This document shows positions 562 to 20,032 of a DNA stretch of 20,032 nt, in pieces (the stretch's first letter is position 1; every line of letters starts with the position of its first letter). The notes under the pieces were generated by a model. That model saw only the letters and a program-made list of their open reading frames with translations, ran no database searches and had not been told where the DNA came from. The DNA comes from a virus. A program made the position numbers and the translations under genes. Location of the stretch: positions 1-20,032 of the IMG/VR virus record IMGVR_UViG_3300030419_003076, one strand, 5' to 3'.

Positions 562-566
562 ATTAT

Positions 567-1256: not shown

Positions 1257-1265
1257 AATAATCCT

Positions 1266-1856: not shown

Positions 1857-1859
1857 AAT

Positions 1860-2795: not shown

Positions 2796-2806
2796 TTTAA
2801 TATCTC

Positions 2807-6597: not shown

Positions 6598-7250
6598 TAT
6601 TCACCACGAGACACAAACGGCGCTAGCGCAGAATTGTACTCTGCTAGCAATTCCTGATATTGAGCGCGATGTAAAGATACTAGCTCTGGGTCTTCATCCT
6701 CGTTATAAAACGTAATTGTTCTTAATTTTAACTTTGCGCTAGCACCAAGAACTAGCGCATATTCTAGCTCATCTGGAAATTTAGTAACAGAACTAGCATT
6801 ATGTTCTATGGTTGGGTTATCCATAGAATAATACCTTGTTGGATTTCCAGCGGCTGGTTCTGGGTAGACATAAATATCATTATCATTAAATGTCCACCTA
6901 GGTGATTCGTCTGTTGCAAAATATATACTATGCGGATTTTGCAATTTCCCCTGCAATGTAGCATCTGCAAAAACACAAGAAACATATAAACTTGTCGTAT
7001 CGTCATCTTCTCTTCTTTCAACCAACAATATTCTTGAACTTTCAACATTGCTTGCGATTGGATTTGAGGTCACATTAGAAGATTTTGTTGCGAATTGAAT
7101 TAATATATCAGGTCTTACTTTATTTATAATGTCGCTTGCAGTATCTTGAAGCGCATCTTGTATAGCCTGTTCATTTGCGGCAGTATCATCTGAACCTAAA
7201 GTTGATGTTGCTCCAATTATATCTTCTATTCTTACCTGAAAATTAGCCAT
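6597..7250 (-). CDS. Head-tail connector/adaptor candidate (217 aa)
   Basis: A predicted mixed alpha/beta protein. The N-terminus (VRIEDIIGATSTLGSDDTAA, then AIQDALQDTASDIINKVRP) gives two helices. A beta-rich core contains W-T-F-N-D-N-D-I-Y-V-Y-P-E-P, a pattern common in phage adaptor proteins. A helical C-terminus (LEYALVLGASAKLKLRT, HRAQYQELLAEYNSAL) ends it. In position (after the first connector candidate and before the tail hub) and helix-sheet-helix layout it resembles adaptor/tail-tube-terminator proteins such as T7 gp11, but I do not claim homology. It overlaps both neighbours by one base. Its function at the portal-tail interface is inferred. Confidence 0.55.
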   Translation of the reverse strand: MANFQVRIEDIIGATSTLGSDDTAANEQAIQDALQDTASDIINKVRPDILIQFATKSSNVTSNPIASNVESSRILLVERREDDDTTSLYVSCVFADATLQGKLQNPHSIYFATDESPRWTFNDNDIYVYPEPAAGNPTRYYSMDNPTIEHNASSVTKFPDELEYALVLGASAKLKLRTITFYNEDEDPELVSLHRAQYQELLAEYNSALAPFVSRGE

Positions 7251-8167: not shown

Positions 8168-8169
8168 TG

Positions 8170-8268
8170 TTATTTTCTTTTATTTTTATTGTATTTTTTT
8201 CTAGCCCTACTTGCTTTTTTTACGCCTTCAGGCGTGTAGGGATATTCTACTCCATTAACATAAGGCAT
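8170..8268 (-). CDS. Tiny Lys/Arg-rich protein (32 aa)
   Basis: A 32-residue frame starting MPYVNGVEYPYTPEGVKKAS and ending in a basic tail (KKYNKNKRK). The first half, with V-N-G-x-x-Y-P-Y-T-P-E-G, is conserved-looking rather than random; from memory, similar mini-proteins occur in many environmental phages. The start at 8268 has an AAAAGG Shine-Dalgarno element about nine bases upstream, at the end of the preceding mini-gene. It ends two bases before the next gene. Function is unknown; binding to packaged DNA or capsid is a guess based on its charge and its place among head genes. Confidence 0.7.
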   Translation of the reverse strand: MPYVNGVEYPYTPEGVKKASRARKKYNKNKRK

Positions 8269-8270
8269 AG

Positions 8271-8393
8271 TTAATATCCTTTTCTTTTTTTACGTTTTTT
8301 GCGAACACGGGATTTCTTTTTTAGCGTTGTTATTAAACGCGTAGAGCCATCGCTAAACGATGTTGCCCCTGTTCCGTATGTTATTTCTTTCAC
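8271..8393 (-). CDS. Tiny basic protein sharing a motif with the capsid N-terminus (40 aa)
   Basis: Starts at a GTG (8393) that overlaps the upstream TAG in a TAGTG junction. It encodes MKEITYGTGATSFSDGSTRL and then a very basic tail (LKKKSRVRKKRKKRKGY). The first half resembles the capsid protein's own N-terminus: both have YGTG, then F-S-D at residues 13 to 15 and Arg at 19. It ends two bases before the next mini-gene's ATG. It is too short for automatic gene calling, but the coupling, the lack of a gap and the protein-level similarity support it. Function is unknown; capsid- or DNA-associated is an inference. Confidence 0.65.
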   Translation of the reverse strand: MKEITYGTGATSFSDGSTRLITTLKKKSRVRKKRKKRKGY

Positions 8394-8905
8394 TATGCAA
8401 TTACAAATTCAGCAGTCCCTGTAACTTCTCCAAGAACTTGCCAATTTGTACCATCAAATATCAACATTACCCCTCTTGAAGCAGCGTCTGATGTCAATGT
8501 TGAACCTGCTGCAAAATTTGCAGGGGTTACAACAAGAGAAACTGTATTTGCAAGCACCTTGTGAAAAATAATTTTTAATTGACCCGCTGTACCATCTGCA
8601 AGGCTAACATGACTTTTGCTTGTAGCTGTATTAACAAACGATGTTAATGTATTTAACGAAAGCGCTGTCGCGTTTCCTGAGCCATTACCAGCATCGACCG
8701 TTTCTACTCCAGCAATAATGCCGTATCCAGCCGTTACATGACCAGTGCTTATTATTTGACCCAATGCTTTTACGTTTCCAGTTGTTCCATCTTCTAATTG
8801 TAGTCCGGTAGTATCGCCATCGCCAGAAACAACAGTTCTTAGTGTTGAGTCAACGCCCTGATTATTATTATCTATTCTTAATGAATCTTTATATGATTCT
8901 GCCAT
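8393..8905 (-). CDS. Capsid decoration / head-fibre-like protein (170 aa)
   Basis: The protein is rich in Gly, Thr, Ala, Ser and Asn, with few charges. The N-terminal part (YKDSLRIDNNNQGVDSTLRT, then GDTTGLQLEDGTTGNVKALG) has the repeated short-strand look of phage head or tail fibres. The C-terminal part (HKVLANTVSLVVTPANFAAG ... MLIFDGTNWQVLGEV) is a beta domain of the kind seen at the end of decoration and fibre proteins, with the F-D-G-T-N-W-Q-V motif. The gene sits directly downstream of the capsid gene, the usual place for decoration proteins, separated from it by 58 bases containing a strong hairpin. There is an AAAGGA element ten bases upstream of ATG 8905. Role inferred. Confidence 0.6.
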   Translation of the reverse strand: MAESYKDSLRIDNNNQGVDSTLRTVVSGDGDTTGLQLEDGTTGNVKALGQIISTGHVTAGYGIIAGVETVDAGNGSGNATALSLNTLTSFVNTATSKSHVSLADGTAGQLKIIFHKVLANTVSLVVTPANFAAGSTLTSDAASRGVMLIFDGTNWQVLGEVTGTAEFVIA

Positions 8906-8924
8906 TTTTTATTCCTTTATCAAA

Positions 8925-8950
8925 CTTGAGGGCGGTTGCCCGCCCCCAAG
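8925..8950 (-). terminator. Strong GC-rich hairpin between capsid and decoration genes
   Basis: Arms 8925-8935 (CTTGAGGGCGG) and 8940-8950 (CCGCCCCCAAG) pair at ten of eleven positions around a four-base loop (TTGC). On the minus-strand transcript it lies just after the capsid stop codon. Only a short, impure U run (UUUGAU) follows. It may therefore be a leaky terminator or an mRNA 3'-end stabiliser that keeps capsid mRNA above the downstream genes, rather than a full stop. Confidence 0.6.
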
Positions 8951-8963
8951 CGATTATTTGGTT

Positions 8964-10418
8964 TTAGACCAGCTTTAAGATAGCGTGAGTCTGTTCATTA
9001 CGAATCTCAACGCCAACTTCCATTAGCCATTCATCAGTTTGACCATCACGACCATCCTTAACAATGTCTTTACGAAGTTGCATATCGCGACCAGCCAAAG
9101 GACGAACTGAAAAGTTCGCTGGGTCAATCGCCACTGCATAATCTTCTAAAGAACCATTTAAGTATGGATGAGGGATAAAGTCTAACTGACCAACTGGACC
9201 CATGTAAGAGCGAACCCTTAGACCAGTTGCTGTTTTTTCACCAGTATCGTAAAAACCAGTATCAGCACTTCTTGTAGCCGCAACAAGTTGCACAAGCCAC
9301 TTATTAGAACAAAATACGGTTTTTCTCATTGAACCTGAAACCATATCATGGAATAGATACTCTGAAACACCATCTAGGTTAGAAAGACCATCACTGTAAT
9401 CCCATTGCATATTGGTATTGCTAGCGCCATTCAAGGATGAAACTGCACCTGCGGTGCTACTAACATCAAAACCTTGAAAAGTACGTTTTGGGTTTTCAGC
9501 GGTTGCATCAAGAGAGATTGCGCCATTTGTTAAAATAGCCCATTCAACATCACCTTTGATTTTTGCTAGTTTTCTAGCTTGCAACCTTGCTAACTCCGAA
9601 CCACCGTAATGCTTTGCAGCTTTTGCAGTTCCAGTTACTGTGTATGGCTCGCGAAAAATTTGCGTACAGTTTTTCAACCTACGAACTTTTTTACGAGTTT
9701 CAGTTCCTACTGCTGAACCTTCAGCAATACCTGCAACGCCATTTTCACGCATAAAGTAATCAGCGTCAGCAAAAGTAACTTCACCAAAACCGCTAGTTGC
9801 GCTATGTGTTTGATAGCCATAGTATGATGTTGCGGTTCCATTGTCGTAAAATAACCCTGCATTAGCAACATATTCTAAAGTTAAAACACCAGATGCATCT
9901 GCTGTTATTAGGTCTGAAGCGTCTGCACAAGCTTCTACGTTATAAGCATCGAGGCTAGAATGAGCATGCGCTCCAAGAAACTGAGCCATTTTATCGGTTG
10001 CACTGCCATGATTCACATCTTTACCAACTGCGATACAAATAAAATGAGTAACATCAGTTTGTAAAGCCGCAGAGCCACCAGCAACACTTGCGCTGTAAAT
10101 ACCACCAACCTCAAACATTTCCATTTGAGCTTGTCTTTCAGCTATTAAGATTGTGTGATGACCGTTTATACCACCTGTTGCTGTGTCAGCAACATCTGAA
10201 GAAGTTATGTTAAACTTCTCACTTTTTTTAATCATATACTCGTCTTCCATCCACTCGAAAATAGGGACTGGAGTCACTACTGACTTCATTCCAAACAGAG
10301 AGAAAATGGGAGTCGCGTTAGGATTATAGTAATGGATTTTAGACCCTAGCTCAAGGACTTGTCTTTGTGTTGAGTCCGAGAACTGAAGGGCGGTACCAGT
10401 ACCGTAACTTGTAGGCAT
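8964..10418 (-). CDS. Major capsid protein (484 aa)
   Basis: Called from position (directly after an acidic scaffold), length and pattern. The N-terminal arm (MPTSYGTGTALQFSDSTQRQ) is followed by a segment with P-I-F-E-W-M-E-D-E-Y, a motif type seen in capsid proteins of the SU10-like (DUF5309-like) HK97-fold group. The C-terminus is typical of such proteins: PVGQLDFIPHPYLNG, then an A-I-D-P-A-N-F segment and WLMEVGVEIRNEQTHAILK. It has the strongest ribosome binding site in the window (AGGAGG, six bases from ATG 10418), as expected for the most abundant virion protein. The HK97 fold is inferred from known families; the exact family label is tentative. Confidence 0.8.
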   Translation of the reverse strand: MPTSYGTGTALQFSDSTQRQVLELGSKIHYYNPNATPIFSLFGMKSVVTPVPIFEWMEDEYMIKKSEKFNITSSDVADTATGGINGHHTILIAERQAQMEMFEVGGIYSASVAGGSAALQTDVTHFICIAVGKDVNHGSATDKMAQFLGAHAHSSLDAYNVEACADASDLITADASGVLTLEYVANAGLFYDNGTATSYYGYQTHSATSGFGEVTFADADYFMRENGVAGIAEGSAVGTETRKKVRRLKNCTQIFREPYTVTGTAKAAKHYGGSELARLQARKLAKIKGDVEWAILTNGAISLDATAENPKRTFQGFDVSSTAGAVSSLNGASNTNMQWDYSDGLSNLDGVSEYLFHDMVSGSMRKTVFCSNKWLVQLVAATRSADTGFYDTGEKTATGLRVRSYMGPVGQLDFIPHPYLNGSLEDYAVAIDPANFSVRPLAGRDMQLRKDIVKDGRDGQTDEWLMEVGVEIRNEQTHAILKLV

Positions 10419-10476
10419 ATTATACCTCCTATTTATGTTACAATAGCGCTACAATCCATCTTATAGAACTATAACA

Positions 10477-11391
10477 CTATGTATTCGTATTATTGTATTC
10501 CATAATTCCCTTCCAAAAATCATCAACAACTTTTTCTTCTGGCTCAACAGCTTGAGGAGCATTACCGCTAACAGCGGCAGCGCTATTCTGCTTGTTTTTT
10601 GCTTTTGGAGCTTGTTGCGAAGTTCCGGATTGAGAATTATTCCCTTTGTTCGATAAAGTTTTCCATATTTGAACTAAGTTCTCCTGAGATACATTATTTG
10701 GGTCAGCCATAAACTGCCTATATTCGACAATATCTGTATCACTTAACCCCATTTTCTGTAACTCTGCGGTCTCTGCATCAAACGCCTGAGACTCTGAAAG
10801 TTCAGACTTTAGCTTTTCGACCTCCAACATGGCTTGAGTAGCGCCTTGATTAATAAGCCACTTATCATGCTCTGCTCTCCAATTTGCGGAGCTAGAGTTT
10901 TCAATGCTTTCATCAAGAATATCGTAATCATCCGGCTTAACTGGCGGAGCATTCAAATCTTTTTGTTTTTCTTGAACTGATTCTGTCAGTTTTTGAACCA
11001 CATCAGGATTATTTGAGAGAAAATCATCTAATTGCGCTAATTTTTCATACTTTTGCTTTTCACCACTCCACTCATTACGTTCTTTATCAGACTTTGATTG
11101 AAGTTGCTTATAGGCATCTGCTAACGCTTTTTTTCCTTCCTCATCATTTGCGAATTTATTCTCGATAAGCCATTGCTCAACCTTAGATTCTTCATTGGGT
11201 TGCTCTTCATCGACTTTCTCATCAGATTGAACATCTTGAACTTCCTCAGCTTCTGGAGAATTTTGTTGGGTCTCAACTACCTCTTCCTGTTCAGCTTCTG
11301 GAGAAGAGCCTTCGTTAAACTCATCGAGTTCAGCCATAAGGTTATCTTCGTTCATTTCTTCATTCTGGTTTTTCTGGTCTTCATTTGTCAT
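10477..11391 (-). CDS. Capsid scaffolding protein (304 aa)
   Basis: The first ~75 residues are extremely acidic and disordered (Glu, Asp, Gln, Asn; e.g. EAEQEEVVETQQNSPEAEEV). A helical middle follows (residues ~75 to 225, including KKALADAYKQLQSKSDKERN and EVEKLKSELSESQAFDAETA). Then comes a low-complexity Gln/Ser/Ala/Lys stretch (~250 to 275) and a short C-terminal helix (VVDDFWKGIMEYN). That C-terminal helix is the likely capsid-binding part, as in P22- and T7-type scaffolds. The gene lies between portal and major capsid protein, the standard scaffold position. AAAGGAG, six bases before ATG 11391, supports the start. No protease motif is seen, so the scaffold probably exits or is reused rather than cleaving itself. 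Confidence 0.8.
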   Translation of the reverse strand: MTNEDQKNQNEEMNEDNLMAELDEFNEGSSPEAEQEEVVETQQNSPEAEEVQDVQSDEKVDEEQPNEESKVEQWLIENKFANDEEGKKALADAYKQLQSKSDKERNEWSGEKQKYEKLAQLDDFLSNNPDVVQKLTESVQEKQKDLNAPPVKPDDYDILDESIENSSSANWRAEHDKWLINQGATQAMLEVEKLKSELSESQAFDAETAELQKMGLSDTDIVEYRQFMADPNNVSQENLVQIWKTLSNKGNNSQSGTSQQAPKAKNKQNSAAAVSGNAPQAVEPEEKVVDDFWKGIMEYNNTNT

Positions 11392-11415
11392 ACGATGCTC
11401 CTTTTAAGTTATCCG

Positions 11416-13422
11416 CTATGCTTGCGGAGCTTTAGGTTCTGAGTTAATCGTTTGTTTTGCAATAGACAATTCCTCGCCGACCATGCGAGTCTTGTCTCTT
11501 TGTCGTGCTTGTTCCAGCTTTGCATTGGACTTAATGTTGCTTACCGCTTCAGAAACTGGTTTGGTAGCTTCACTTATTTCAGCCCTCATATTTGCATGGA
11601 ATACTTCACGCTCTCTAGTTTGCAGGTCTCCCTGCATTCTCTTGAGTTCTTCCTGCGCTTGTTGCAACTGCGCCTGTAAATTTGCTATTTCTCCCATTCT
11701 TTGCATTAGTGATGCTTTGTCTATATCACCTTTCATATTCATGATTACTTGCGTTTTATCATAAATACCTGCATTTAAGAGAGTTAAATCTTTTTGTAAT
11801 TCAGCCATTGGAGACTTACTACGAGTAGAACCAACTACTACTCTTACATCAAATTGCGATGTTTGCATATCATATAATTTTTTAACCGCACCTGTTTTAT
11901 CGTCAATAACGGGTATATTTAAATTAACTTCATTTTCGTCGCCAACCGGACTTACAATCCTCAAAGTTCTTTGTTGGTCATAAACGCTAGGCATCCATTG
12001 AGTAACAACCTTGGCTGTTCTTGTTAGCATGTCATATATAGGAAGAATTTTCCAGTTTTGTTTTCTCGAAGAAGATTCGTCCATGATTTGCGCTTCTCCA
12101 ACAGTTCCGGGCGCACCTTGTGCATTCCCTTGTAAAAATTTATATGCTCCAAAAACTGTTTCAATATCTACTTCATATCTTCCTTTTTCAGCATAAAGAC
12201 TTGAAGATACTGCTGGCGGGGCAAATTCTTTGATTTTTCCTGTTGCTAATGCACCCGGATTAGCCCGTATTATAGCGTTTGGTATGTGCCATTTTTGTAT
12301 TTCGCTAGCATCTATAGCCCCATCTTCGTATAAAAGTTTAAAATTTGTTGTAGCATTTGTATGTGAAATAATTAAAGCTTCGGTCCTGTTCAGCATACGC
12401 TGAGGTGTCTTGGCATGCCTAACGTCTCCACTCGGGAATGGATTGCCAGCATGCTCATTACATGCGACAGCAATAGGATACTCAGAGATGGGGAGTATCT
12501 CATCATACAGGACCGTATCACCAACAACAAACACTTCCCTAATTCTTGTCTGATACGCTAATTGCTCTGTAATTACCCCTTCTTTTAAAAAATCTTCATA
12601 TTTATTATCTGAAATAAGCTCTTTATATTCATCTTTTGTGTATAATTGATTTTTTCCAGTATTAGTATCAAGTATTAAAGCATGTGGAATATTTACTTTT
12701 ACAAAATAACAATATTTTCTTACCCTACTTTGATGGTCAAGGTCATGGCTTCCTCTTGTTTCTATATGGTCTCTTGAATACTTTCCACTTTCCATTTCAT
12801 TTCTTTGGTGATTTTCTTCGGCATCATCAATTTCTTTTGCGTATTGAGGAAAAAGTATTTTAAGATGTTCTTTTGTATGTAAATCTGAATATATAATAGC
12901 GCTAGCATCTGAAAAGTCTGGCATAGAGCTATTAGGGTCTACAAAAATAGATTCAGGTGGCATTCTTTTTACTTTTATAGTACCGAGACCACTATCCCCC
13001 TGCCAATCGGGATATATATACATATAAGCTAAACCTTTGACAATAAAATCTTTACATGCCTGTCTAAAATGAACATCGGCGTCCGATTCGTACCAAATCT
13101 TATCAAGTAATTGGTCAAAAACGAACGCCGCATCATTATCGGTCTTGCCCACAGCGTGAACATCCCATTCAGGAGCAGATGCGGCGATATTCGCTAATAC
13201 CTGCTCTACAGCGGGACGTATTTTATTGTTAGCTTCGGGGGGTTGCCCCACACTGAGCAAGTAATTCTTTTGTGCCTTTGTCAGTTGTGAACCGAGATAA
13301 AACTCATGGTCTTCCGCCATTTGATAGCGGTATTCGCTAGAAGAGCTTTCAAAATGCAGATAGTCTGCTCTTACCTCTTCTGCCGAAATCTTTTTAGTTT
13401 CAAGCTGACGTAAGTTTAACAT
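11416..13422 (-). CDS. Portal protein (668 aa)
   Basis: The length and pattern match large podovirus portals of the P22 type. The N-terminal part has a helical segment with Y-R-Y-Q-M-A-E-D-H-E-F-Y-L-G-S-Q, then PPEANNKIRPAVEQVLAN and ACKDFIVKGLAYMYIYPDWQ, a layout typical of portal wing regions. PPESIFVDPNSSMPDFSDAS is also a portal hallmark. Residues ~572 to 650 form a long Gln/Glu/Lys/Arg-rich coiled coil (e.g. EIANLQAQLQQAQEELKRMQ), expected for a barrel or DNA-guiding C-terminus. It forms the twelve-subunit ring at the packaging vertex, contacting the large terminase and the adaptors. There is no clear Shine-Dalgarno upstream of ATG 13422, which sits inside a 12-base palindrome (TAACATATGTTA, 13417-13428). 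Confidence 0.85.
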   Translation of the reverse strand: MLNLRQLETKKISAEEVRADYLHFESSSSEYRYQMAEDHEFYLGSQLTKAQKNYLLSVGQPPEANNKIRPAVEQVLANIAASAPEWDVHAVGKTDNDAAFVFDQLLDKIWYESDADVHFRQACKDFIVKGLAYMYIYPDWQGDSGLGTIKVKRMPPESIFVDPNSSMPDFSDASAIIYSDLHTKEHLKILFPQYAKEIDDAEENHQRNEMESGKYSRDHIETRGSHDLDHQSRVRKYCYFVKVNIPHALILDTNTGKNQLYTKDEYKELISDNKYEDFLKEGVITEQLAYQTRIREVFVVGDTVLYDEILPISEYPIAVACNEHAGNPFPSGDVRHAKTPQRMLNRTEALIISHTNATTNFKLLYEDGAIDASEIQKWHIPNAIIRANPGALATGKIKEFAPPAVSSSLYAEKGRYEVDIETVFGAYKFLQGNAQGAPGTVGEAQIMDESSSRKQNWKILPIYDMLTRTAKVVTQWMPSVYDQQRTLRIVSPVGDENEVNLNIPVIDDKTGAVKKLYDMQTSQFDVRVVVGSTRSKSPMAELQKDLTLLNAGIYDKTQVIMNMKGDIDKASLMQRMGEIANLQAQLQQAQEELKRMQGDLQTREREVFHANMRAEISEATKPVSEAVSNIKSNAKLEQARQRDKTRMVGEELSIAKQTINSEPKAPQA

Positions 13423-13435
13423 ATGTTACATAATA

Positions 13436-13464
13436 ATCTTACAAAACAGTTATACAATAATCAA
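13436..13464 (-). promoter_or_regulatory. Weak candidate promoter before portal gene
   Basis: On the minus strand, TTGATT (13459-13464) and TAAGAT (13436-13441) are separated by exactly 17 bases. Each matches the sigma-70 consensus at four of six positions. The start point would be only a few bases from the portal ATG, which also lacks an evident ribosome binding site. Chance matches are common in AT-rich DNA. Confidence 0.2.
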
Positions 13465-13841
13465 AATTTTTTATTTAATAAAATTAAAGTAGATATTGGC
13501 ACTAATAATAATTCAGATGTATTGTCATCGCCACCTTTTACCATGTGCGCTAAGTCGTTTAAATACATATACTTAACTGCCTTACGAAGTTTATCAACTC
13601 GAAAAATAAGCATAAACTTTACATCACCTTCAATAGTAAAAACCTGTATCCACCATTTTGCATCTGTAGTTGAAATACCAGAAGGCTTTCCCCTTGACCT
13701 TATTTCAATCGCTATATTTCCAGTGTCAGCCCATATATCTCTTTCGGTCTTGACCTCAATAGAGCCTTCACCTTCAAATAGTTTTCTTACTTTTTCTTCG
13801 TATATCTGACCAAAATCTAGGTCAATGTCAAAATTTCCCAC
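13461..13841 (-). CDS. PD-(D/E)XK-type endonuclease-like protein (126 aa)
   Basis: Resembles a small family often found between terminase and portal genes in environmental phages. A leading helix (DFGQIYEEKVRKLFEGEG) is followed by I-E-V-K-T-E-R-D (E29-x-K31, the ExK part), then TGNIAIEIRSRGKPSGISTT and A-K-W-W-I. The EVK, TGN..IE.R and SGI.TT elements are the landmarks of these resolvase/PDDEXK-like proteins; the catalytic Asp is not obvious. The start is a GTG at 13841 overlapping the terminase stop (TAGTG). A role in processing branched DNA before packaging, or in trimming ends, is inferred from position. A non-catalytic relative is possible. Confidence 0.6.
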   Translation of the reverse strand: MGNFDIDLDFGQIYEEKVRKLFEGEGSIEVKTERDIWADTGNIAIEIRSRGKPSGISTTDAKWWIQVFTIEGDVKFMLIFRVDKLRKAVKYMYLNDLAHMVKGGDDNTSELLLVPISTLILLNKKF

Positions 13842-15490
13842 TACGCTTCAACAAAATCTACTGCACTGAACATTTGACCCGTTTCCCAATCTACCTCTGT
13901 AATTGGTGGTGGTGCTAACCATTCTCCTTTTTCATTTTGCTCAACATCAGGCGCCCATATATCATCTATTGCCCAACGAAGTGCATCTAATGTATCTTTT
14001 TTAAAAGTTCCATGCTCTTTAAAGTTTAAAAGCTCTGTTTCTAGCTCTTCATGTGTTTCTTTTAAAAATACAGAATGAGATGCAAAATGAGGTTGCATTT
14101 GCTTTATTCGATAATATTTTGCTTTAATAGCTTTTCTTGTGTTTATATTATAAAACCTTCCAGTTTCTTTTGAATGTCTTCGTACATAGTCTGCTAGCAT
14201 TACATGACCTGTTTCTTCAATTTTAATATCTCTTGGATGATACATGTCTGCTAGCTCAAATAATTTATCAGCACCGTCCATAGGAGCTACTTGACCGCGA
14301 AAATAATCAAGAACATATATATTATATTCTTTATCTACTGCTATAACCATTATAACCGTATAATCTGCTTTTACATTCTCACTTGACGCAGGGTCAACGC
14401 CTATAAATATATTTACAGGTAATTTAACTCTCCGACCCTCATCTGTTCGCATAATAAAGCTTTGCTCATCTTCATACATGTACCTACCTTCCCAATATCG
14501 CATATCTTTTTGTTTAAATATACGAAAACTATCATCTACTGGAATGTTTTGATATTCTTGATAAAAATATGCTATATCACCTTCTGATTTTAATCTTTCT
14601 TTTTCCCCCATCAACCATGAATATGGTCTTCTATCTTCCCATAAAACTTTAACATTGCCTTTTTTATCTGTAAATTCATTTCCAGAAGTAGCAAATTTAC
14701 CTTTAGGTAGGTCTTGCGGTACTGCTTGAAAAAATAACGACCTCCAACCCTTGACCTTATAATTTCCCTCTTTATCATAAGCAAGAGGACCAGCAATTCT
14801 ATTCAAATAAGCATCTGTATCTACAATAGTACCGATAAATACAAGCTTTGCATCGCCAGAACCCGGTATAACTGCTGCGTTTAGCCATCTTCTAAATTTA
14901 TCTCGAGCTGTAGGGGTAGTGCTGTTTGATTCTCCCTCTCCATCGTCAATTATTGTTAAAGTTGGGCGATATGCTCCATATTTTAATCCACGAACCTTTT
15001 GACCAGTACCTCTAATAAGGCATTTACACATAACATTTGGTTTGCCGTATTCATCAAACCCGCCAATAACTTCTTTTTCTTCTTTTCCCCAAATAGCGCC
15101 TTTTCTATCGCCAAAAAAATATTTTATCTTAGGATTGAACTCAATTTCATTGCCTATTGCTTCTAAATTGTACTTAGATTGCATTTCAGATTCAGAAATA
15201 AGCAATAAAAAGCGCTCTTCTCCAAACAAAATACGATGTAATGGATAAATTAAATTGATAAAGGTCGATTTTGCGTGGTCTCTTGGAGCAACAACAGCTA
15301 ATTTGTCCCCACCATTCATATCTATTAGCGTTTTTGCTATTTCTTTATGAAAATCTGGCGACTTTGACCTACAATGATAATGCATAGAATTATCAGGGTC
15401 TCCAAATAAAATATCAGCAAATGTAAATATATCAAGATACATAGCTTCAAGCATTTTTTGTTTATTTTCAGCTTTTCCCATATTCCCCAA
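13841..15490 (-). CDS. terL: Terminase large subunit (549 aa)
   Basis: ATP-driven DNA packaging motor with nuclease. The N-terminal ATPase has a deviant Walker A, APRDHAKST (residues 68 to 76), with Ala replacing the usual Gly before Lys. It is followed by Walker B PTLTIIDDGEGE (Asp-Asp-Gly-Glu around 182 to 185) and the coupling motif VFIGT (217 to 221). The C-terminal RNase H-like nuclease shows its acidic triad in order: IFIGVDPASS (D366), IKIEETG (E425/E426) and KDTLDALRWA (D502). The length is normal. The ATG at 15490 overlaps the previous ORF by 23 bases; a second ATG three codons later (15481) is an alternative. It works with the small terminase at the portal. Confidence 0.93.
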   Translation of the reverse strand: MGNMGKAENKQKMLEAMYLDIFTFADILFGDPDNSMHYHCRSKSPDFHKEIAKTLIDMNGGDKLAVVAPRDHAKSTFINLIYPLHRILFGEERFLLLISESEMQSKYNLEAIGNEIEFNPKIKYFFGDRKGAIWGKEEKEVIGGFDEYGKPNVMCKCLIRGTGQKVRGLKYGAYRPTLTIIDDGEGESNSTTPTARDKFRRWLNAAVIPGSGDAKLVFIGTIVDTDAYLNRIAGPLAYDKEGNYKVKGWRSLFFQAVPQDLPKGKFATSGNEFTDKKGNVKVLWEDRRPYSWLMGEKERLKSEGDIAYFYQEYQNIPVDDSFRIFKQKDMRYWEGRYMYEDEQSFIMRTDEGRRVKLPVNIFIGVDPASSENVKADYTVIMVIAVDKEYNIYVLDYFRGQVAPMDGADKLFELADMYHPRDIKIEETGHVMLADYVRRHSKETGRFYNINTRKAIKAKYYRIKQMQPHFASHSVFLKETHEELETELLNFKEHGTFKKDTLDALRWAIDDIWAPDVEQNEKGEWLAPPPITEVDWETGQMFSAVDFVEA

Positions 15491-15692
15491 TATAACTTTC
15501 TAACATATCTAGTTGTTGTTTATATAAATCAACCTCATCAAGTAATTCTAAAATAAATTTAGCTACTACTCCATCAACAAAATAAGGTTCATTATCTATA
15601 TGAATCAATCCCGGTTGAGATACATCTATATCTTCACTCTTGGACTGTTGCTGATGTGTGAACTTCTTCGTTTTTATCGTTTTTTGCGCCAT
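15468..15692 (-). CDS. Short overlapping protein between terminase subunits (74 aa)
   Basis: Unrecognised. From ATG 15692 (MAQKTIKTKK) the protein has a basic, Gln-rich N-terminus. A compact part follows (GLIHIDNEPYFVDGVVAKFI) and then a C-terminal helix (LELLDEVDLYKQQLDMLESY). An ATG five codons upstream (15707) would give 79 residues. It overlaps the last ~59 bases of the small terminase gene and the first 23 of the large terminase, each in another frame. The downstream two thirds lie in otherwise empty DNA between the subunits, which argues that the frame is used. It may be a packaging accessory protein, but nothing in the sequence says so directly. Confidence 0.55.
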   Translation of the reverse strand: MAQKTIKTKKFTHQQQSKSEDIDVSQPGLIHIDNEPYFVDGVVAKFILELLDEVDLYKQQLDMLESYIGEYGKS

Positions 15693-16443
15693 ATGTGGTC
15701 TCTGCAATGGTTTTGCGTACAGATGACAATTTTTTTATATCACCATCTGATAAAGCAAATACGCCTTCAATCTGTTCTTCTTTTTTCTCTTTGGTCAAAT
15801 GTCCAAGCATGTCACTTACTCTATTTAAAGCATTAAGTTTTGTCGCAGGTGGTGTTTCAATATCTTCAATCATATTTTTGTATTGATTTGCAACGTAATC
15901 ATCGTCCATTCCCATTGCGGCTAATTTATCTCTCATATTCATAGCAATATATTCCCTAATATGTTTTCTTTTAAGTATCCCCATACCTCGCCTAAGTGCT
16001 TGTTCGGGGTTATTGTCTTTGTATATTGATTGATAGGCAAGTATTATAGATTCTGAATCCCACATGCCCAGCTTATCTGTTTTCCCATGTAGGAATAAAG
16101 CGTCTACAAATGTTCTTTGTTTTGCGGTAGGTCGTACATTTTTTACTAAATCTTTTCCAAAATAGTATTTATCACGATAATAATTTGGTTGTTCTTGAGC
16201 ATAAACATGTTTCTTATGAACACCGCATTCTCCGTAACCAGTACGGATGAAAATATAAGGTTTTTTAGAATTTGCGTGATTTTCTGTACGTCTGCCAATA
16301 ACCTGTATAACTTTTCCATCTTGCGTCTGTATCCAATCTCCTACCTCAGCTTTTCTCCAGTCATCTACAGGTGTTATATTTAGACCTTTCGATTCTTCTT
16401 TGGTATAAACATCAAATGTTTTACCTCTACATTCAACTCGCAT
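15634..16443 (-). CDS. terS: Terminase small subunit with extra N-terminal domain (269 aa)
   Basis: Residues ~105 to 235 fit a small terminase. There is a K-Q-R-T-F-V-D-A-L start, a helix-turn-helix-like region (ESIILAYQSIYKDNNPEQAL, RRGMGILKRKHIREYIAMN), then AAMGMDDDYVANQYKNMIED and P-P-A-T-K-L-N-A-L-N-R-V-S-D-M-L-G-H-L. This matches the usual recognition domain plus oligomerisation helices. The first ~95 residues form a separate beta-rich, possibly SH3-like domain containing V-G-D-W-I-Q-T-Q-D-G-K-V-I-Q-V-I, which classical small terminases lack. It recognises the packaging start on the genome and hands DNA to the large subunit. The ATG at 16443 overlaps the upstream stop (TAATG). Confidence 0.75.
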   Translation of the reverse strand: MRVECRGKTFDVYTKEESKGLNITPVDDWRKAEVGDWIQTQDGKVIQVIGRRTENHANSKKPYIFIRTGYGECGVHKKHVYAQEQPNYYRDKYYFGKDLVKNVRPTAKQRTFVDALFLHGKTDKLGMWDSESIILAYQSIYKDNNPEQALRRGMGILKRKHIREYIAMNMRDKLAAMGMDDDYVANQYKNMIEDIETPPATKLNALNRVSDMLGHLTKEKKEEQIEGVFALSDGDIKKLSSVRKTIAETTYGAKNDKNEEVHTSATVQE

Positions 16444-16622
16444 TACTTTTTAAGTTTTCTAGCGCGTAACCTTTTTGGTTTTTTTGCAGTTTTTGCAGAT
16501 TCTATAAAATCCTGTTTTGAAGGCGCACCCTTAGAACCTACTTTTCTCATTTTTTCACCACTGCCAGCTTTTATTCTTTTTCGCTTAGCATGGATATTTG
16601 CGTATAATCCGGGTTTAGCCAT
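16443..16622 (-). CDS. Small basic conserved phage protein (59 aa)
   Basis: Starts MAKPGLYANIHAKRKRIKAG and continues G-S-G-E-K-M-R-K-V-G-S-K-G-A-P, ending in a Lys/Arg-rich helix (KPKRLRARKLKK). From memory, this sequence type is very frequent as a stand-alone small gene in marine phage contigs, often beside terminase genes. Its function is unknown to me. It shares one base with the next gene's start (TAATG) and one with the mini-gene before it, so the whole cluster is coupled. The high charge suggests nucleic acid binding, which is an inference. Confidence 0.8.
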   Translation of the reverse strand: MAKPGLYANIHAKRKRIKAGSGEKMRKVGSKGAPSKQDFIESAKTAKKPKRLRARKLKK

Positions 16623-16708
16623 TACTTTTTCTTCTTTTTTACAGTTCTGGTTTTTTTCATTGGAGGTCTTCCAACTTTCTTACCATATGTACCTTTACCT
16701 CTTGGCAT
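16622..16708 (-). CDS. Mini basic protein, MPRGKGTYG type (28 aa)
   Basis: Encodes MPRGKGTYGKKVGRPPMKKT followed by a basic tail (RTVKKKKK). From memory, the RGKGTYG..VGRPP core recurs in many environmental phages as a mini-gene, which makes a 28-codon frame believable. AAGGAG lies upstream of ATG 16708 with about seven bases' spacing. It joins the next gene through a TAATG overlap. The VGRPP piece resembles an AT-hook (G-R-P), which suggests minor-groove DNA binding; this is inference. Confidence 0.7.
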   Translation of the reverse strand: MPRGKGTYGKKVGRPPMKKTRTVKKKKK

Positions 16709-16718
16709 AATATACTCC

Positions 16719-17015
16719 TTATGATTTTTTATTCTTGTTTGCAAAATTGCGCGCAGCCTCAACAGAACCAAATCCCCATTTTTTTAAAGCCAAAGCTTTT
16801 CTAGTAGGTCTTCCTTTTGAATCTTTCATAGGTCCTTTCATTCCAGCAAATCTTGCAGCGAACGATACTCGCCTTGGATTTGTTCCTTTTGGAACGGGCG
16901 CTTTTAACGTTCCGCCAGTTTCCGCTTTGTAACTCGCACGACCTTTAGCGTTTAAGCCACCTTTAGGGTTTTTACCTTCTTTACGTCTCCACGCTGCTGT
17001 TCTTAGTCTTTTCAT
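16719..17015 (-). CDS. DUF6321-like small basic protein (98 aa)
   Basis: Fits the small DUF6321-type phage family: A-W-R-R-K-E-G-K-N-P-K-G-G-L-N-A-K-G-R at residues 8 to 26, then LKAPVPKGTNPRRVSFAARF and a conserved GMKGPMKDSKGRPTRKALAL segment. Function is unknown to me. It is strongly basic, with Gly/Lys/Arg-rich loops and a short C-terminal helix (GSVEAARNFANKNKKS). No clean Shine-Dalgarno precedes ATG 17015 (an AAGG lies ~17 bases upstream). It sits ten bases upstream of the MPRGKGTYG mini-gene and belongs to the group of basic proteins next to the terminase. The family name is from memory. Confidence 0.8.
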   Translation of the reverse strand: MKRLRTAAWRRKEGKNPKGGLNAKGRASYKAETGGTLKAPVPKGTNPRRVSFAARFAGMKGPMKDSKGRPTRKALALKKWGFGSVEAARNFANKNKKS

Positions 17016-17036
17016 AATTAAAATGGTACCTTGTTT

Positions 17037-17198
17037 TTATCTTCTACTTTCATCTTTCATTTCAAAGAACCTACAACCCTTATCAACAACATTTGAAGGA
17101 ATATGTTCTTTTTCCTTGCCTAATTTATCAAAATATTTACAAAACCCCAAAAATGTCATTCCACCTAATTGTTGATACTTACAATTCCAACAATTCAT
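17037..17198 (-). CDS. Four-cysteine zinc-ribbon-like mini-protein (53 aa)
   Basis: A 53-residue frame starting MNCWNCKYQQLGG. Cys at 3 and 6 form a CxxC pair; further Cys at 20 (FLGFCKYF) and 42 (DKGCRFFE) complete a likely four-cysteine metal site. The I-P-S-N-V-V-D-K-G-C-R-F-F-E ending is a pattern I recall from small phage proteins with the same Cys layout. It begins at ATG 17198, overlapping the end of the previous gene by 20 bases in another frame. A later ATG (Met 14) would lose the first CxxC, so the upstream start is preferred. Function is unknown; a zinc-stabilised nucleic acid or protein binder is inferred. Confidence 0.65.
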   Translation of the reverse strand: MNCWNCKYQQLGGMTFLGFCKYFDKLGKEKEHIPSNVVDKGCRFFEMKDESRR

Positions 17199-17385
17199 TA
17201 TTTTCTCTATCATCTACATAAGTAATCATACAATCCCCATTAAATTCATCTGCTGTTGTAGGCTCTCCATCTAAAAATGCTATAGCCCTTTCTTTTGATA
17301 ATTCATCTGTGGTTGTTGAGGCTATTGTTTGAAGACCATGCTCTAGCCATTTAATACGTTCTTGTAAATTTTTTATTGAGGGCAT
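17179..17385 (-). CDS. Short hypothetical protein (68 aa)
   Basis: Unrecognised. The N-terminal 30 residues (NLQERIKWLEHGLQTIASTT) look like an amphipathic helix or short coiled coil; the C-terminal part is acidic (VDDRENNELLEL). No clear Shine-Dalgarno is seen before ATG 17385, which lies 17 bases after the stop of the DUF736-like gene, so it may depend on coupling. It overlaps the four-cysteine mini-gene by 20 bases. Support comes from the continuous open frame and tight spacing only. Confidence 0.5.
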   Translation of the reverse strand: MPSIKNLQERIKWLEHGLQTIASTTTDELSKERAIAFLDGEPTTADEFNGDCMITYVDDRENNELLEL

Positions 17386-17402
17386 GTTACGCGAGGTGGC
17401 AT

Positions 17403-17597
17403 TTAGAATGGATTACTGACCTTATCTTCAACTTTAAACGAAATATATTGCTTGCCAGATTGCCCAACCTTTTTCCAGCCTGCTATTTTAACTTCCCTAC
17501 CGCCTATCTTACCTTGTCCTGTATAATCTGGTTGTTTTTCGTTCTTCTTCTCATTCTCAAATATTGAAAATGTGTCATCTTTTTGTTCGTACGGCAT
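17403..17597 (-). CDS. DUF736-like small protein (64 aa)
   Basis: Matches the small DUF736-type pattern: I-F-E-N-E-K-K-N-E-K-Q-P-D-Y-T-G, then a G-x-E-V-K-I-A-G-W-K-K segment and SGKQYISFKVED, a compact beta-barrel-like fold. In related proteins the same order appears (N-x-K-x-x-x-x-P-D-Y-x-G ... W ... SGK.F.S.K). From memory, this family occurs in phages and mobile elements, with no firmly known role. The start is ATG 17597, supported by AGGAG six bases upstream. A longer frame to 17654 would add a hydrophobic N-terminus without a ribosome binding site, so I reject it. This is the first minus-strand gene after the divergent region. Confidence 0.7.
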   Translation of the reverse strand: MPYEQKDDTFSIFENEKKNEKQPDYTGQGKIGGREVKIAGWKKVGQSGKQYISFKVEDKVSNPF

Positions 17598-17692
17598 TTT
17601 TACTCCTGAATTGGTTAAAAAAATAATTTCAAGCCCCGCAACAAATATAATCATAATCGAATCATAGTTAAAAGAAAAAAGGTTGAGTAGTT

Positions 17693-17806
17693 AACCTAAG
17701 GTTTTTTAAACCTAAGGTATATAGTATATATACTTCTACTTCTACTTCTATATGCATGGCATTGCCATAGCAAAGCCATTTTAAAAAAATGGCAAAGCTA
17801 TAGCTT
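17693..17806. repeat. Cluster of direct, tandem and inverted short repeats
   Basis: AACCTAAGGT occurs twice (17693-17702 and 17709-17718), with AGGTTT/AAACCT arms between the copies. TACTTC is repeated in tandem three times (17731-17748). Three inverted repeats follow at once: ATGGCA-T-TGCCAT (17756-17768), GCCATTTT-AAA-AAAATGGC (17775-17793) and the 12-base palindrome AAGCTATAGCTT (17795-17806). None has a clean T run, so they do not look like terminators. Binding sites or origin elements are more likely. Confidence 0.65.
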
Positions 17807-18137
17807 GGCTATTTAAGTATAACAATATGTGAGGTTATAAAGAATTAAGTATTGAATAAACAGTGATGTAAACACCCTTTAAAGTAAAAAATTGTGCAAA
17901 AAATGGATGGGATGCACTCTACGTATGCACACCCCCCTATGTACGCGTTCGGCTCTGCTCGATTTCGTTGAGTACGCGTTTCGCGTTGACAGTCTCTCTA
18001 CGCGTAGACGTACCTTATCTTTTTTGCCTCGTTTTATCTCCTATTGCCGTCGATAATAGCGATTTAACTAGGTTTGGCGTTATTTTGTGGCTAAATTTGA
18101 GTTCTGCCGACGGCACTGTGTCGAAGGTTTTGAATGC

Positions 18138-18161
18138 ATACGCATAGCACGTGCGTATAAT
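18138..18161 (+). promoter_or_regulatory. Rightward promoter with overlapping palindromes
   Basis: A perfect -10 box, TATAAT (18156-18161), lies 37 bases upstream of the first rightward ATG. No clear -35 box is at 17 bases; TTGAAT (18130-18135) is 20 bases away. ATACGCA (18138-18144) and TGCGTAT (18152-18158) form a seven-base inverted repeat overlapping the -10 box, and GCACGTGC (18147-18154) is a nested 8-base palindrome. This arrangement suggests repressor or activator binding at the promoter. Confidence 0.5.
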
Positions 18162-18164
18162 ACA

Positions 18165-18190
18165 CGCGAAGGACACCCTTCGCGAAGGAG
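18165..18190 (+). promoter_or_regulatory. Hairpin next to a strong ribosome binding site
   Basis: CGCGAAGG (18165-18172) pairs perfectly with CCTTCGCG (18177-18184) around an ACAC loop. CCTTCGCGAAGG (18177-18188) is also a perfect 12-base palindrome that reaches into the Shine-Dalgarno AAGGAG (18185-18190), seven bases before ATG 18198. The two pairings exclude each other; the second would hide the ribosome binding site. It could be a translational switch or simply a DNA operator just past the promoter. Confidence 0.5.
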
Positions 18191-18197
18191 AAGAACC

Positions 18198-18590
18198 ATG
18201 AGTATAACAATATACACACCTAACAACGAAGTTGTTAACCGAAACGACGTAAACACCCAAGCTAGCACCGAACGCGTAGATATTCCTACGCATGAAGAAG
18301 AGCTTGCTCTTCTCGTGTACGAAGAGGACTTCCGTCAGCCCGAGCTAGCAAAATTCCTCGCGTCCGCGAAGAGTCGCGAAGAGGAAATTTGGGAAGAGGA
18401 AGAGTTCCGTGCGCAAGACCGCGCGGTAATTACACCCGCCGTCTACGACTTCGAGGACGAACTCCAACGTCGTGAAGAGTCCGACGTACCGAACGCGCAA
18501 GACCACGCGATGAAAACCGCGCTGTCTAACGGCTTTACTATCGACGAGAGTAGCGACGGAATCACGCGTTGGGAACATCTCAACGCGTAG
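18198..18590 (+). CDS. Very acidic first rightward protein (130 aa)
   Basis: Unrecognised. The start at 18198 is set by AAGGAG seven bases upstream. By my count it has about 31 Asp/Glu against 12 Lys/Arg, with acidic clusters at E-E-E-L (~33 to 36), S-R-E-E-E-I-W-E-E-E-E-F (~59 to 70) and YDFEDELQRREESD. It has no Cys or membrane segment. A helical centre is likely. As the first gene behind a strong promoter on the rightward side it sits where phages put early host-takeover or anti-defence proteins, and high acidity is compatible with DNA mimicry or RNA polymerase/nuclease inhibition. These roles are inference only. The gene is distinctly richer in G and C, with many CGCG, than the surrounding AT-rich genes. 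Confidence 0.65.
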   Translation: MSITIYTPNNEVVNRNDVNTQASTERVDIPTHEEELALLVYEEDFRQPELAKFLASAKSREEEIWEEEEFRAQDRAVITPAVYDFEDELQRREESDVPNAQDHAMKTALSNGFTIDESSDGITRWEHLNA

Positions 18591-18616
18591 ACTGTAGCCG
18601 ACGAGATACACAACGA

Positions 18617-18671
18617 AACCCTAGATGGTCTATCCCTTCGGGATAGGTAGGTTCGAGTCCTACCTAGGGTT
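18617..18671 (+). ncRNA. Compact tRNA-like fold lacking a D-arm
   Basis: AACCCTAG (18617-18624) pairs perfectly with CTAGGGTT (18664-18671), like an acceptor stem. GTAGG-TTCGAGT-CCTAC (18647-18663) is a perfect T-arm with a standard T-loop. Between them is CTATCCC-TTC-GGGATAG (18630-18646), which also reads as a five-pair anticodon-like stem with a seven-base loop (CCTTCGG, TTC in the anticodon position). There is no room for a D-arm, U33 is absent, and CAA rather than CCA follows. It may be a decayed tRNA, a tRNA mimic or another structured RNA. Confidence 0.45.
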
Positions 18672-18681
18672 CAATGCGCCT

Positions 18682-18722
18682 TATTCCCTTCGGGAATAGA
18701 CCACCCTAGAGCAATCTCTAGG
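18682..18722 (+). ncRNA. Two further hairpins in the structured non-coding stretch
   Basis: TATTCCC-TTC-GGGAATA (18682-18698) is a seven-pair hairpin nearly identical in loop and core to the one in the tRNA-like fold. CCTAGAG-CAAT-CTCTAGG (18705-18722) is a second perfect seven-pair hairpin. TGGTCTAT (18626-18633) is complementary to ATAGACCA (18696-18703), so the two elements could also pair with each other. No long T run follows either hairpin. Together with the preceding element this suggests one structured RNA of about 105 bases between two genes. Confidence 0.4.
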
Positions 18723-18736
18723 AACGCGTAAGGGAG

Positions 18737-18770
18737 AACACCCTAGGGAGTAAAACACCCTAGGACACCC
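18737..18770 (+). repeat. AACACCCTAGG direct repeat
   Basis: AACACCCTAGG occurs at 18737-18747 and 18754-18764, immediately followed by another ACACCC (18765-18770). The spacing of 17 bases between copies is a little over one and a half helical turns. It shares the CCCTAG core with the stems of the tRNA-like fold just upstream and the ACACCC core of the wider motif family. Confidence 0.6.
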
Positions 18771-18857
18771 AAAAATGCTAGCATGTCCTATAGTGACGGC
18801 ATAGAACACTCTAGCAAGAATAAAAACCATAGCCGTCGAAATGGAGTAAACACCCAA

Positions 18858-19205
18858 ATGGGTATAATCGACCAAATAACAAAGTGCATTATCGACACGA
18901 ATGGAGCCACTATTCAGGGATGGGAACTGTTCCAAGGGAACAGTGGATTTGTCGTAGGATGTGGTAATATTGAGACAATTACTGTCAATGGTAAGCAAGA
19001 AATATGGCATATAGTGGAAAAACACTATATTGAAAACGTAGGTTTTTGGATGGACGAAGGGAAACTGTATATTGACAGAATACAGATTGTAGATGATGTA
19101 AAAAGAGCCATTAGCCTTGCTAATGACAATAATGAACTTGCTATATGGGATATAGCAAACCAACAAGAGATACGAACCAATAATAATTCTAGCATTGAAC
19201 TATAA
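18858..19205 (+). CDS. Hypothetical protein (115 aa)
   Basis: Unrecognised. A soluble, probably alpha/beta protein with segments IDTNGATIQGWELFQGNSGF, then ITVNGKQEIWHIVEKHYIEN and VDDVKRAISLANDNNELAIW. I place the start at ATG 18858, with GGAG (18843-18846) eleven bases upstream, a slightly long spacing. The same frame is open to ATG 18783 (140 aa), but that start has no Shine-Dalgarno. The longer form would begin with a basic segment including R-R-N-G-V-N-T-Q, similar to R-N-D-V-N-T-Q in the acidic protein; the shared part is the GTAAACACCC DNA motif, so I prefer the shorter form. AT-rich, unlike the preceding gene. Confidence 0.6.
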   Translation: MGIIDQITKCIIDTNGATIQGWELFQGNSGFVVGCGNIETITVNGKQEIWHIVEKHYIENVGFWMDEGKLYIDRIQIVDDVKRAISLANDNNELAIWDIANQQEIRTNNNSSIEL

Positions 19206-19244
19206 GTGAAAATGCTAGAATTATTAAAAGCAAGAGAGGAGCAA

Positions 19245-19880
19245 ATGAACGAGATTCAAAAATTGAAATCAACTAAACTACCATTCATCCTATTGGATGA
19301 GAAATTACCATGCCATATTCAGTTGGCATTTAATCTATGCGAGGGCAAAGATGTGATATTAACTACTTTTGCCGAGGATAAAAGAACGAGAGATAGGCTA
19401 AAAAAGGACGTTATCTACGTTGCTGATAGTGAGAGGTATCATATCAAGCAAGGAACGGCTCTTTATAACCTAGCAAATATTTTGCTAGAAAATCACCTAG
19501 ATAGCCATAATTATGAGGGGAATTATGTTAGTGATATGGATACAATAATCAATATCCAAAAATGTGATATTTGGGATATAGATGCCGACGAGTTCTATCT
19601 TGAAAACTCTGTAACTTACATGACAAGCCATTGGACGATAGTAAATGAACAAGGGCAAAGAGTTGCGCTCCACCATGCTTTGCCATTCCACAAAGATTTG
19701 GTGGATAAATTCTATGGATATGAATTAACTTGGTCAAGACATAACATAACCGACGAAGATGGAAAATCAGATTATTTTTCGCATAAATATGATTTTAACG
19801 ACCTTGTTGACTCTCCTATAGAGAGTCAGTGGGGAAAGGGTTCTGATGTCTTTATCGTCGGAAAAGGAAAAGACTATTAA
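19245..19880 (+). CDS. Hypothetical protein (211 aa)
   Basis: Unrecognised soluble protein with mixed charge. The N-terminal part (KLPFILLDEKLPCHIQLAFN) has a strand-helix feel; the C-terminal half is rich in Asp, His, Tyr and Trp (KCDIWDIDADEFYLEN, HWTIVNEQGQRVALHHALPF). ATG 19245 is preceded by GAGGAG, only three bases away. The same frame is open from a GTG at 19206 that abuts the upstream stop and an ATG at 19212, giving 224 or 222 residues. Coupling to the preceding gene would favour those. The start is therefore uncertain; the frame and stop are not. The gene probably shares a transcript with the two before it. Confidence 0.65.
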   Translation: MNEIQKLKSTKLPFILLDEKLPCHIQLAFNLCEGKDVILTTFAEDKRTRDRLKKDVIYVADSERYHIKQGTALYNLANILLENHLDSHNYEGNYVSDMDTIINIQKCDIWDIDADEFYLENSVTYMTSHWTIVNEQGQRVALHHALPFHKDLVDKFYGYELTWSRHNITDEDGKSDYFSHKYDFNDLVDSPIESQWGKGSDVFIVGKGKDY

Positions 19881-19933
19881 TGCTAAAACCTAACGAATTA
19901 AAGAAGGGAGCAGATAATGAAACAGTATTTTAG
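19880..19933 (+). CDS. Possible 17-codon overlapping micro-ORF
   Basis: ATG at 19880 overlaps the preceding stop (TAATG) and reads MLKPNELKKGADNETVF to a stop at 19931-19933, overlapping the start of the next gene. Similar TAATG couplings link many genes here, so it might serve as a ribosome-carrying leader. It has no other support and may be chance. Confidence 0.2.
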   Translation: MLKPNELKKGADNETVF

Positions 19934-20032
19934 AATAGACTACACAGACCATGAGTGGTTTGAATTGATGAAAAAACATGATGAAAAATTACCAGAGAAC
20001 TACCATGATTGTTTTGATGAGCATGGAGAATA
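19917..20032 (+). CDS. Hypothetical protein, cut by right edge
   Basis: ATG 19917 follows a strong Shine-Dalgarno (GGGAG, six bases upstream). The 38 visible codons read MKQYFRIDYTDHEWFELMKK and then H-D-E-K-L-P-E-N-Y-H-D-C-F. The sequence ends in TA at the edge, so whether the next codon is a stop cannot be seen. Not recognised. Probably part of the same rightward transcription unit. Confidence 0.6.
   Translation, partial: MKQYFRIDYTDHEWFELMKKHDEKLPENYHDCFDEHGE

Follow-up and report, generated by a model that had tools for sequence, protein, structure and literature searches.

The element at positions 18617-18671 of the window (the whole 20,032-nt stretch of viral DNA analysed here) is a selected RNA with a real structure. 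It has the shape of a tRNA without a D-arm, its stems covary among related phages, its position near the start of an operon is kept, and similar elements are repeated between genes in other phages. The favoured reading, held with slightly better than even confidence, is that it acts in cis as a tRNA mimic that punctuates the operon, probably as a site for RNase P.

Structure and conservation of the element

The window is a phage contig, in which the ORF list places the structural genes leftward and, from about 18.2 kb, a series of small genes rightward (Table 1). The first rightward gene ends, at its stop codon, 26 nt 5' of the element. Its protein had no PHROG match and was matched by tblastn in 27 of 96 sources, against 10 of 96 for the next gene 3' of the element (window and duplicates counted in both cases), the element still being kept elsewhere. 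The same operon also contains a perfect 16-bp inverted repeat spanning the boundary between two rightward genes (19181-19196 and 19211-19226, with 14 nt between the arms), which is a different type of intergenic structure. The 98-aa protein encoded at 16719-17015 (-) matched the C-terminal end of two families of far longer phage proteins (phrog_3477 and phrog_727).

Table 1. Coordinates of features in the window and of elements in other phages.
Feature	Coordinates	Strand	Description
Terminase, portal, major head protein			leftward structural genes; PHROGs
First gene of rightward operon	18198..18590	+	130 aa; ORF list
Leader motif GATACACAA	18605..18613	+	just 5' of the element; by eye, similar in many relatives
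Acceptor-like stem, 5' strand AACCCTAG	18617..18624	+	8 bp with 18664-18671; fold
Linker ATGGT	18625..18629	+	GG at the place of D-loop G18 G19
Anticodon-like hairpin	18630..18646	+	7 bp, 3-nt loop; covarying stem, variable loop
T-arm	18647..18663	+	5-bp stem GTAGG/CCTAC, loop TTCGAGT
Acceptor-like stem, 3' strand CTAGGGTT	18664..18671	+	followed by CAAT, no CCA
Second hairpin	18681..18699	+	by eye, confined to closer relatives of the window; possible pairing of the 3' half with the element hairpin
Next gene 3' of the element	18858..19205	+	115 aa
G026 elements	L194 (G026 record 1-20000) 9172-14748		eight in one operon
G027 elements	L210 (G027 record 12001-23314) 5554-9266		eight; seven with linker starting CTTGGAGC
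BrutonGaster candidate	L198:43634-43687 (NC_048169.1)		contains the annotated gp169 start; record positions 89634-89687 (-)

The first-pass annotation had described three perfect stems without spare bases at 18617-18671; these coordinates proved exact and the stems were reproduced by RNA folding. The minimum-energy fold of 18617-18673 consisted of an 8-bp acceptor, a 7-bp hairpin with a 3-nt loop and a 5-bp T-stem with the loop UUCGAGU (-24.8 kcal/mol, z = -2.8), and an equally good energy was reached by one of 200 shuffles. RNAalifold returned the same three stems from 16 sequences with no structure supplied. Together, the acceptor and T-stems form a stack of 8+5 = 13 bp in the window.

A terminase search yielded 79 loci, and a strict three-stem scan run on 96 sequences (the window and L001-L095) gave 29 matches, one each in 29 sources, four of which (L001, L006, L007, L014) were second copies of contigs already counted. 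The linker contained GG in all 29 matches and measured 5-9 nt among them (5 nt in the window); a tertiary contact from this GG to the T-loop is predicted. The T-loop sequence TTCGA was invariant across 19 sequences. The anticodon-like loop was variable among the strict-scan matches, with 3-4 nt (TTC, TTT, TAAA, AAA, GTA, TTAG, GTC). If this arm is drawn with 5 bp and a 7-nt loop, position 33 is C instead of U, which makes it unusable as an anticodon arm. The stack was followed by CAAT or CTAT in 26 of the 29 matches, and by CTAC, CTTT or ACTA in the others.

The element was present in 25 of 25 loci with a terminase identity of at least 80% (lowest 81.8%) and at least 3.38 kb of upstream sequence (23 from the strict scan, L057 and L093 from relaxed scans), and in none of six more distant terminase relatives (66-72% identity). 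It was located close to where the rightward operon begins, on the strand opposite the terminase gene and 2.0-4.0 kb from it (27 sources in which both could be placed).

Compensatory changes in the stems of related phages, which the first-pass annotation had set as a check, were indeed found. In the MAFFT alignment of 16 sequences, 98.1% of cells were paired and double changes occurred in 8 of 20 pairs. A second alignment (40 matches, 25 distinct) was fitted to the model and is therefore biased toward the structure; in it, 14 of 20 pairs had double compensatory changes (acceptor 5 of 8, hairpin 5 of 7, T-stem 4 of 5). For both alignments, the covariation score was reached by none of 500 shuffles. 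Uncompensated stem breaks were also looked for: 96.2% of cells in the model-fitted alignment paired, and the unpaired ones were mostly in the hairpin. Hairpin variants included CTATCCC/GGGATAG, CTACCCC/GGGGTAG, CTTCCCC/GGGGAAG and CTCTCCC/GGGAGAG, among others; T-stems occurred as GTAGG/CCTAC, CTAGG/CCTAG, AGGGG/CCCCT and AGCAG/CTGCT, and the acceptor strand as AACCCTAG, AAGCCTAG, AGCCTTAG and CTCCCTAG. In eight chosen relatives, the element was 79-89% identical to that of the window, compared with 0.56-0.65 over the 80 nt downstream (0.585 for shuffled sequence) and 0.62-0.89 over the 80 nt upstream, which are partly coding.

A covariance search of 41 sources matched 40 (the miss being L203). 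Over 92 sources, family members reached 51-88 bits apart from two divergent sequences, which scored 28 bits, and full-length tRNA-like sequences of other phages scored up to 34 bits; these two members are thus not separable from tRNAs by model score and were separated by their place and stems. On 26 whole records, the model matched 18, including one unrelated record (that of L124). The eight missed records were four distant relatives, the divergent L056, in which the stem scan was positive, and the contigs L036, L037 and L043, which have short upstream DNA.

In a longer transcript (18617-18725), the minimum-energy fold breaks the cloverleaf by pairing 18626-18636 with 18693-18703. This alternative pairing could act as a switch; it is not a general feature, because the downstream partner is absent, by eye, in more distant family members.

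Smaller elements in other phages

A wide search with the pattern CCTAG-N20-38-GTTCGANTC-N4-5-CTAGG returned 65 stretches in viral contigs, 35 of which were counted to the window's family, and eight stretches in 257 Gb of cellular contigs, five of them without such a structure. CTAG is uncommon in many bacterial genomes, and as the pattern contains CTAG, taken from the window's family, these counts do not allow an estimate of how frequent the class is or of whether it is restricted to viruses. Many of the other 30 viral stretches had an acceptor, a GG linker and a T-arm, with the small hairpin present or not, and a few were in or beside tRNA genes (L121, L126, L136) or were ambiguous. L123 had the wide pattern and no element by structure search. 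ARAGORN called no gene in L124, L147, L135, L145, L138, L146, L143 or L131.

The reduced elements, found in phages unrelated in sequence, consist of an acceptor, a 10-12-nt linker with GG and a T-arm, and the smallest are acceptor/T-arm minihelices with a GG linker. A catalogue of 44 distinct mini-elements was compiled from 24 chosen sources, excluding the window's family, scores below 21 and lengths above 63 nt. Stacks of 11, 12 and 13 bp were found in 16, 12 and 16 of them, respectively, in a scan that admits only 11-14 bp. All 44 had GG in the linker, helped by the scan scoring, in which GG added 2 points when choosing between alternatives and was not required. The drawn fold was not the minimum-energy fold in two of six mini-elements folded (L225:9435-9480 and L194:9172-9215), and further mini-elements also missed it. 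The predicted folds of L122, L128 and L139 had a tiny D-like hairpin plus a second hairpin, and these elements are possible intermediates between the minihelix and a full cloverleaf. The matches in L218 and L230 (minus strand) were judged spurious by eye.

Whole-record scans found eight elements in G026 (the record of L124; seven of 41-44 nt and one of 59 nt) and eight in G027 (the record of L147), in each case all on one strand, as well as three candidates in G030 and four elements in L145. Six shuffles of G026 gave no element, one shuffle of 1.72 Mb gave nine, and two shuffles each of 15 records gave three. The element start lay -6 to +20 nt from a same-strand ORF stop in 8 of 8 G026 and 6 of 8 G027 elements, a range that holds 9.6% and 8.3% of positions, respectively (simple binomial tests against uniform placement, with mechanical ORFs of at least 40 aa; P = 7e-9 and 8e-6). 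The window's family has one site per contig found, with a gap from stop to element of 26-31 nt (G013, G002) and no stop within 40 nt in G012; close stop-codon punctuation is therefore argued from the other phages.

T-stems covaried among the L210 elements with the CTTGGAGC linker, and across seven of the eight G027 copies (6 distinct) 6 of 13 pairs covaried, which was matched by 2 of 500 shuffles. The seven-element L194 alignment was left out of the pair counts, as one row was out of register. In six of the eight L194 elements, CTAAATT occurs within two bases 3' and is a possible second conserved signal.

The L057 element, in the window's family, and the G027 elements have AACCTAG-CTTGGAG in common, and L057 may thus connect the forms with one site and those with several. 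Five further phage contigs with elements (L202, L204, L206, L207, L208) came from a scan for this motif, which also matched L203, with no element there. The cultivated Gordonia phage BrutonGaster carried one candidate element between gp170 and gp169, and the annotated start of gp169 falls within it, at what may be a wrongly placed start codon. Among the relatives of this phage in the collection none matched in the region, so that conservation of the element is unsupported in BrutonGaster. The same scan recovered its three annotated tRNAs and two low-scoring matches (18 and 20) judged to be chance. Neither lambda nor Streptomyces phage Ididsumtinwong gave an element in the scan. L151 pointed to Streptomyces phages; the single member scanned lacked an element. 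In phiC31, a control chosen for its possibly processed early transcripts, the scan gave only the annotated tRNA-Thr, and nothing on such processing was found in a literature search. The phage collection contained no match to L147 or L124 DNA, and L145 matched, among the matches listed, methylase genes or positions in an unannotated record.

Among the terminase relatives of L146 (group B), the strict scan was positive in 1 of 20 loci, L162, which is L146's own contig. L170 is the same contig as L125, with the element at the other end. In a looser look at 13 group B loci, L164 and L172 had, by eye, a T-arm with a possible acceptor in a comparable place. Immediately 3' of the L146, L125, L131 and L148 elements stands ACTTGACA, containing a -35-like TTGACA, and on this motif a promoter may lie directly 3' of these elements.

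Tests of tRNA identity and rival explanations

ARAGORN called no tRNA gene in the window or in any of the 50 terminase-relative loci given to it. Rfam at gathering thresholds found nothing in the window and no match over 12 element-bearing loci (130,615 bases). The canonical tRNA model (RF00005) scored above its cut-off in none of 26 phage records and in 14 of 14 control genomes, the best match among the 26 records being G011's own element at 16.9 bits. In a permissive Rfam search, the top models for the element were tRNA-Sec (20.1 bits, E = 0.2; gathering 47) and mascRNA-menRNA (18.5 bits, E = 0.41, positions 1-56 of 56; gathering 42.5), both well under gathering and at chance level. BLAST of a 196-bp region of the window against annotated phages returned short matches only, several of which, among the matches listed, were tRNA genes. 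The element possesses the T-arm of a canonical tRNA (5-bp stem, UUCRA loop) and lacks both the D-arm and a 7-nt anticodon loop with U33 and a conserved anticodon. It possesses the 13-bp acceptor/T stack of tRNA-Sec (RF01852) and lacks the long variable arm: its hairpin abuts the T-arm, the variable arm being missing altogether. As the loop varies, CCA is not encoded and both ARAGORN and Rfam miss it, the element is not a tRNA in decay, nor does it decode.

D-armless tRNAs are found in mitochondria, and a working one that decodes or delivers an amino acid would share the 13-bp stack of tRNA-Sec. Such a tRNA is hardly credible here, given an anticodon-like loop that varies in sequence and length (3-4 nt), the lack of U33 and of an encoded CCA, and the absence of any tRNA gene call; a decoder was accordingly rejected on the tRNA features listed above. 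A tRNA-derived remnant, either the deletion-derived pseudo-tRNA that the first-pass annotation had offered as an alternative or an attP site copying the 3' half of a host tRNA gene, is very improbable. The T-arm and 3' acceptor strand do resemble a tRNA 3' end, and integration is described as commonly yielding partial tRNA genes (PMC9897764). However, an attP requires neither a 5' acceptor strand nor covariation, and RF00005 exceeded its cut-off in none of the 26 records; the covariation of all three stems contradicts the pseudo-tRNA and was taken to rule out both forms.

A mascRNA-like small RNA, cut at both ends and acting in trans, for instance as a decoy that engages tRNA enzymes or defences aimed at tRNA, would agree with the two top models of the permissive search and with CAAT/CTAT after the stack as a possible 3' signal. 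It is nevertheless unlikely, since those scores are at chance level, many elements of other phages contain little beyond acceptor and T-arm, eight differing copies between genes resemble sites rather than one product, and the anticodon-like loop is variable. The more specific proposal of a decoy for anticodon nucleases fares poorly too, as that loop varies and many other-phage elements have no such hairpin. No result pointed to a role in replication. An mRNA structural spacer that needs no tRNA-processing enzymes (3'-end protection, translational insulation, or put/nut-type antitermination close to the early promoter) is doubtful, with a small but real chance of being right: it would suit a place early in the rightward operon and directly after stop codons in other phages. 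Any stable hairpin protects, yet here the T-loop sequence, the linker GG and the full acceptor stack are kept; moreover, no U-tract follows the window element and an intrinsic terminator scan found none at it. The broader suggestion of a tRNA mimic or processing signal, also made at first pass, is supported, as the stems are kept by compensatory change and similar elements lie between genes elsewhere.

Proposed processing and relation to known systems

RNase P is described as binding the T-arm/acceptor stack and measuring from the elbow (PMC4919913), and for E. coli RNase P RNA an acceptor stem with a T-stem-loop alone is reported to be a sufficient substrate, cut at the canonical position (PMC11143913). 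The element is most simply read as a processing site, because only the parts recognised by RNase P are kept, after stop codons on the coding strand. The acceptor/T-stem/T-loop domain of an RNase P substrate (about 12 bp) is present, with 13 bp in the window, and no 3' RCCA is encoded. In the mechanism that we infer, the element would be transcribed and cleaved by RNase P, with an effect on gene expression. The 13-bp stack, T-loop and GG linker of the transcript would imitate the tRNA elbow, from which host RNase P would measure to the stack end, with the expected cut on the 5' side of the acceptor strand, shortly 3' of the first gene's stop codon. Cleavage would free the message of the first gene and give the downstream message a structured, closed 5' end. 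In the window's family, an extra hairpin stands where a tRNA has its D and anticodon arms, and other phages carry up to eight, mostly smaller, versions after successive genes.

That the operons of several unrelated phages are punctuated by such miniature tRNA mimics, the smallest placed directly after stop codons, with host RNase P cutting gene by gene, is considered an even proposition; a frame wider than a single element, with miniature tRNA-like punctuation in several phage groups, is likely. The class would have been overlooked because tRNA finders and Rfam have no model for it. Against RNase P cleavage stand the unencoded CCA and a stack of 13 bp instead of the 12 bp of a normal tRNA; cleavage of a pseudoknot substrate by RNase P is reported to have required a 3' RCCA (PMC12710915). 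The competing fold in the window's subclade and the absence from the six distant relatives also count against this reading or limit it, as does the different minimum-energy fold predicted for some mini-elements.

Several known systems offer comparisons. In mascRNA, RNase P makes the 5' cut, the 3' end is cut and CCA is added. With mascRNA/menRNA (RF01684; MALAT1, MEN-beta), whose anatomy is given partly from general knowledge, the element shares the lack of a D-arm, a size of about 56-60 nt, and the order of acceptor, short hairpin and T-arm; it differs in belonging to a phage, following a protein gene in an operon and being multi-copy in some phages, and its processing is predicted. With tRNA-Sec, its best Rfam match, it shares the 8+5 stack, but it has no long variable arm, D-arm or UCA anticodon and scores 20.1 bits against 47. 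In mitochondrial polycistronic RNA, tRNAs punctuate between genes. Similarly, the phage elements are tRNA shapes between same-strand genes, most of them directly after stops, but unlike mitochondrial tRNAs they have no normal-size D-arm or usable anticodon, and some lack the anticodon arm. MALAT-1 and Men-beta are named as RNase P substrates in PMC4919913, and the RNase P-cut phage and operon RNAs named in PMC11143913 are M3 RNA, C4 RNA (P1, P7), T4 gene 32 mRNA and polycistronic operon mRNAs. As cited there, these phage and operon RNAs are single cases, likened to the present elements by description, whereas the phage elements are repeated and have a consensus. The model substrates of McClain and Altman (acceptor stem, T-stem, T-loop) are nearly matched by the smallest phage elements (41-44 nt), which differ in being natural and in having a GG linker between both stems.

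In the search results from open-licence literature, no description of phage elements of this type was recognised. If the proposed reading is true, they represent a type of viral RNA element that has a set architecture and has escaped annotation, which would explain how genes may be separated within one phage transcript by a host ribozyme and would provide natural minimal RNase P substrates. BrutonGaster, as a cultivated candidate carrier, makes RNA from infected cells obtainable. The phages concerned would thus possess a counterpart to mitochondrial tRNA punctuation, without tRNAs.
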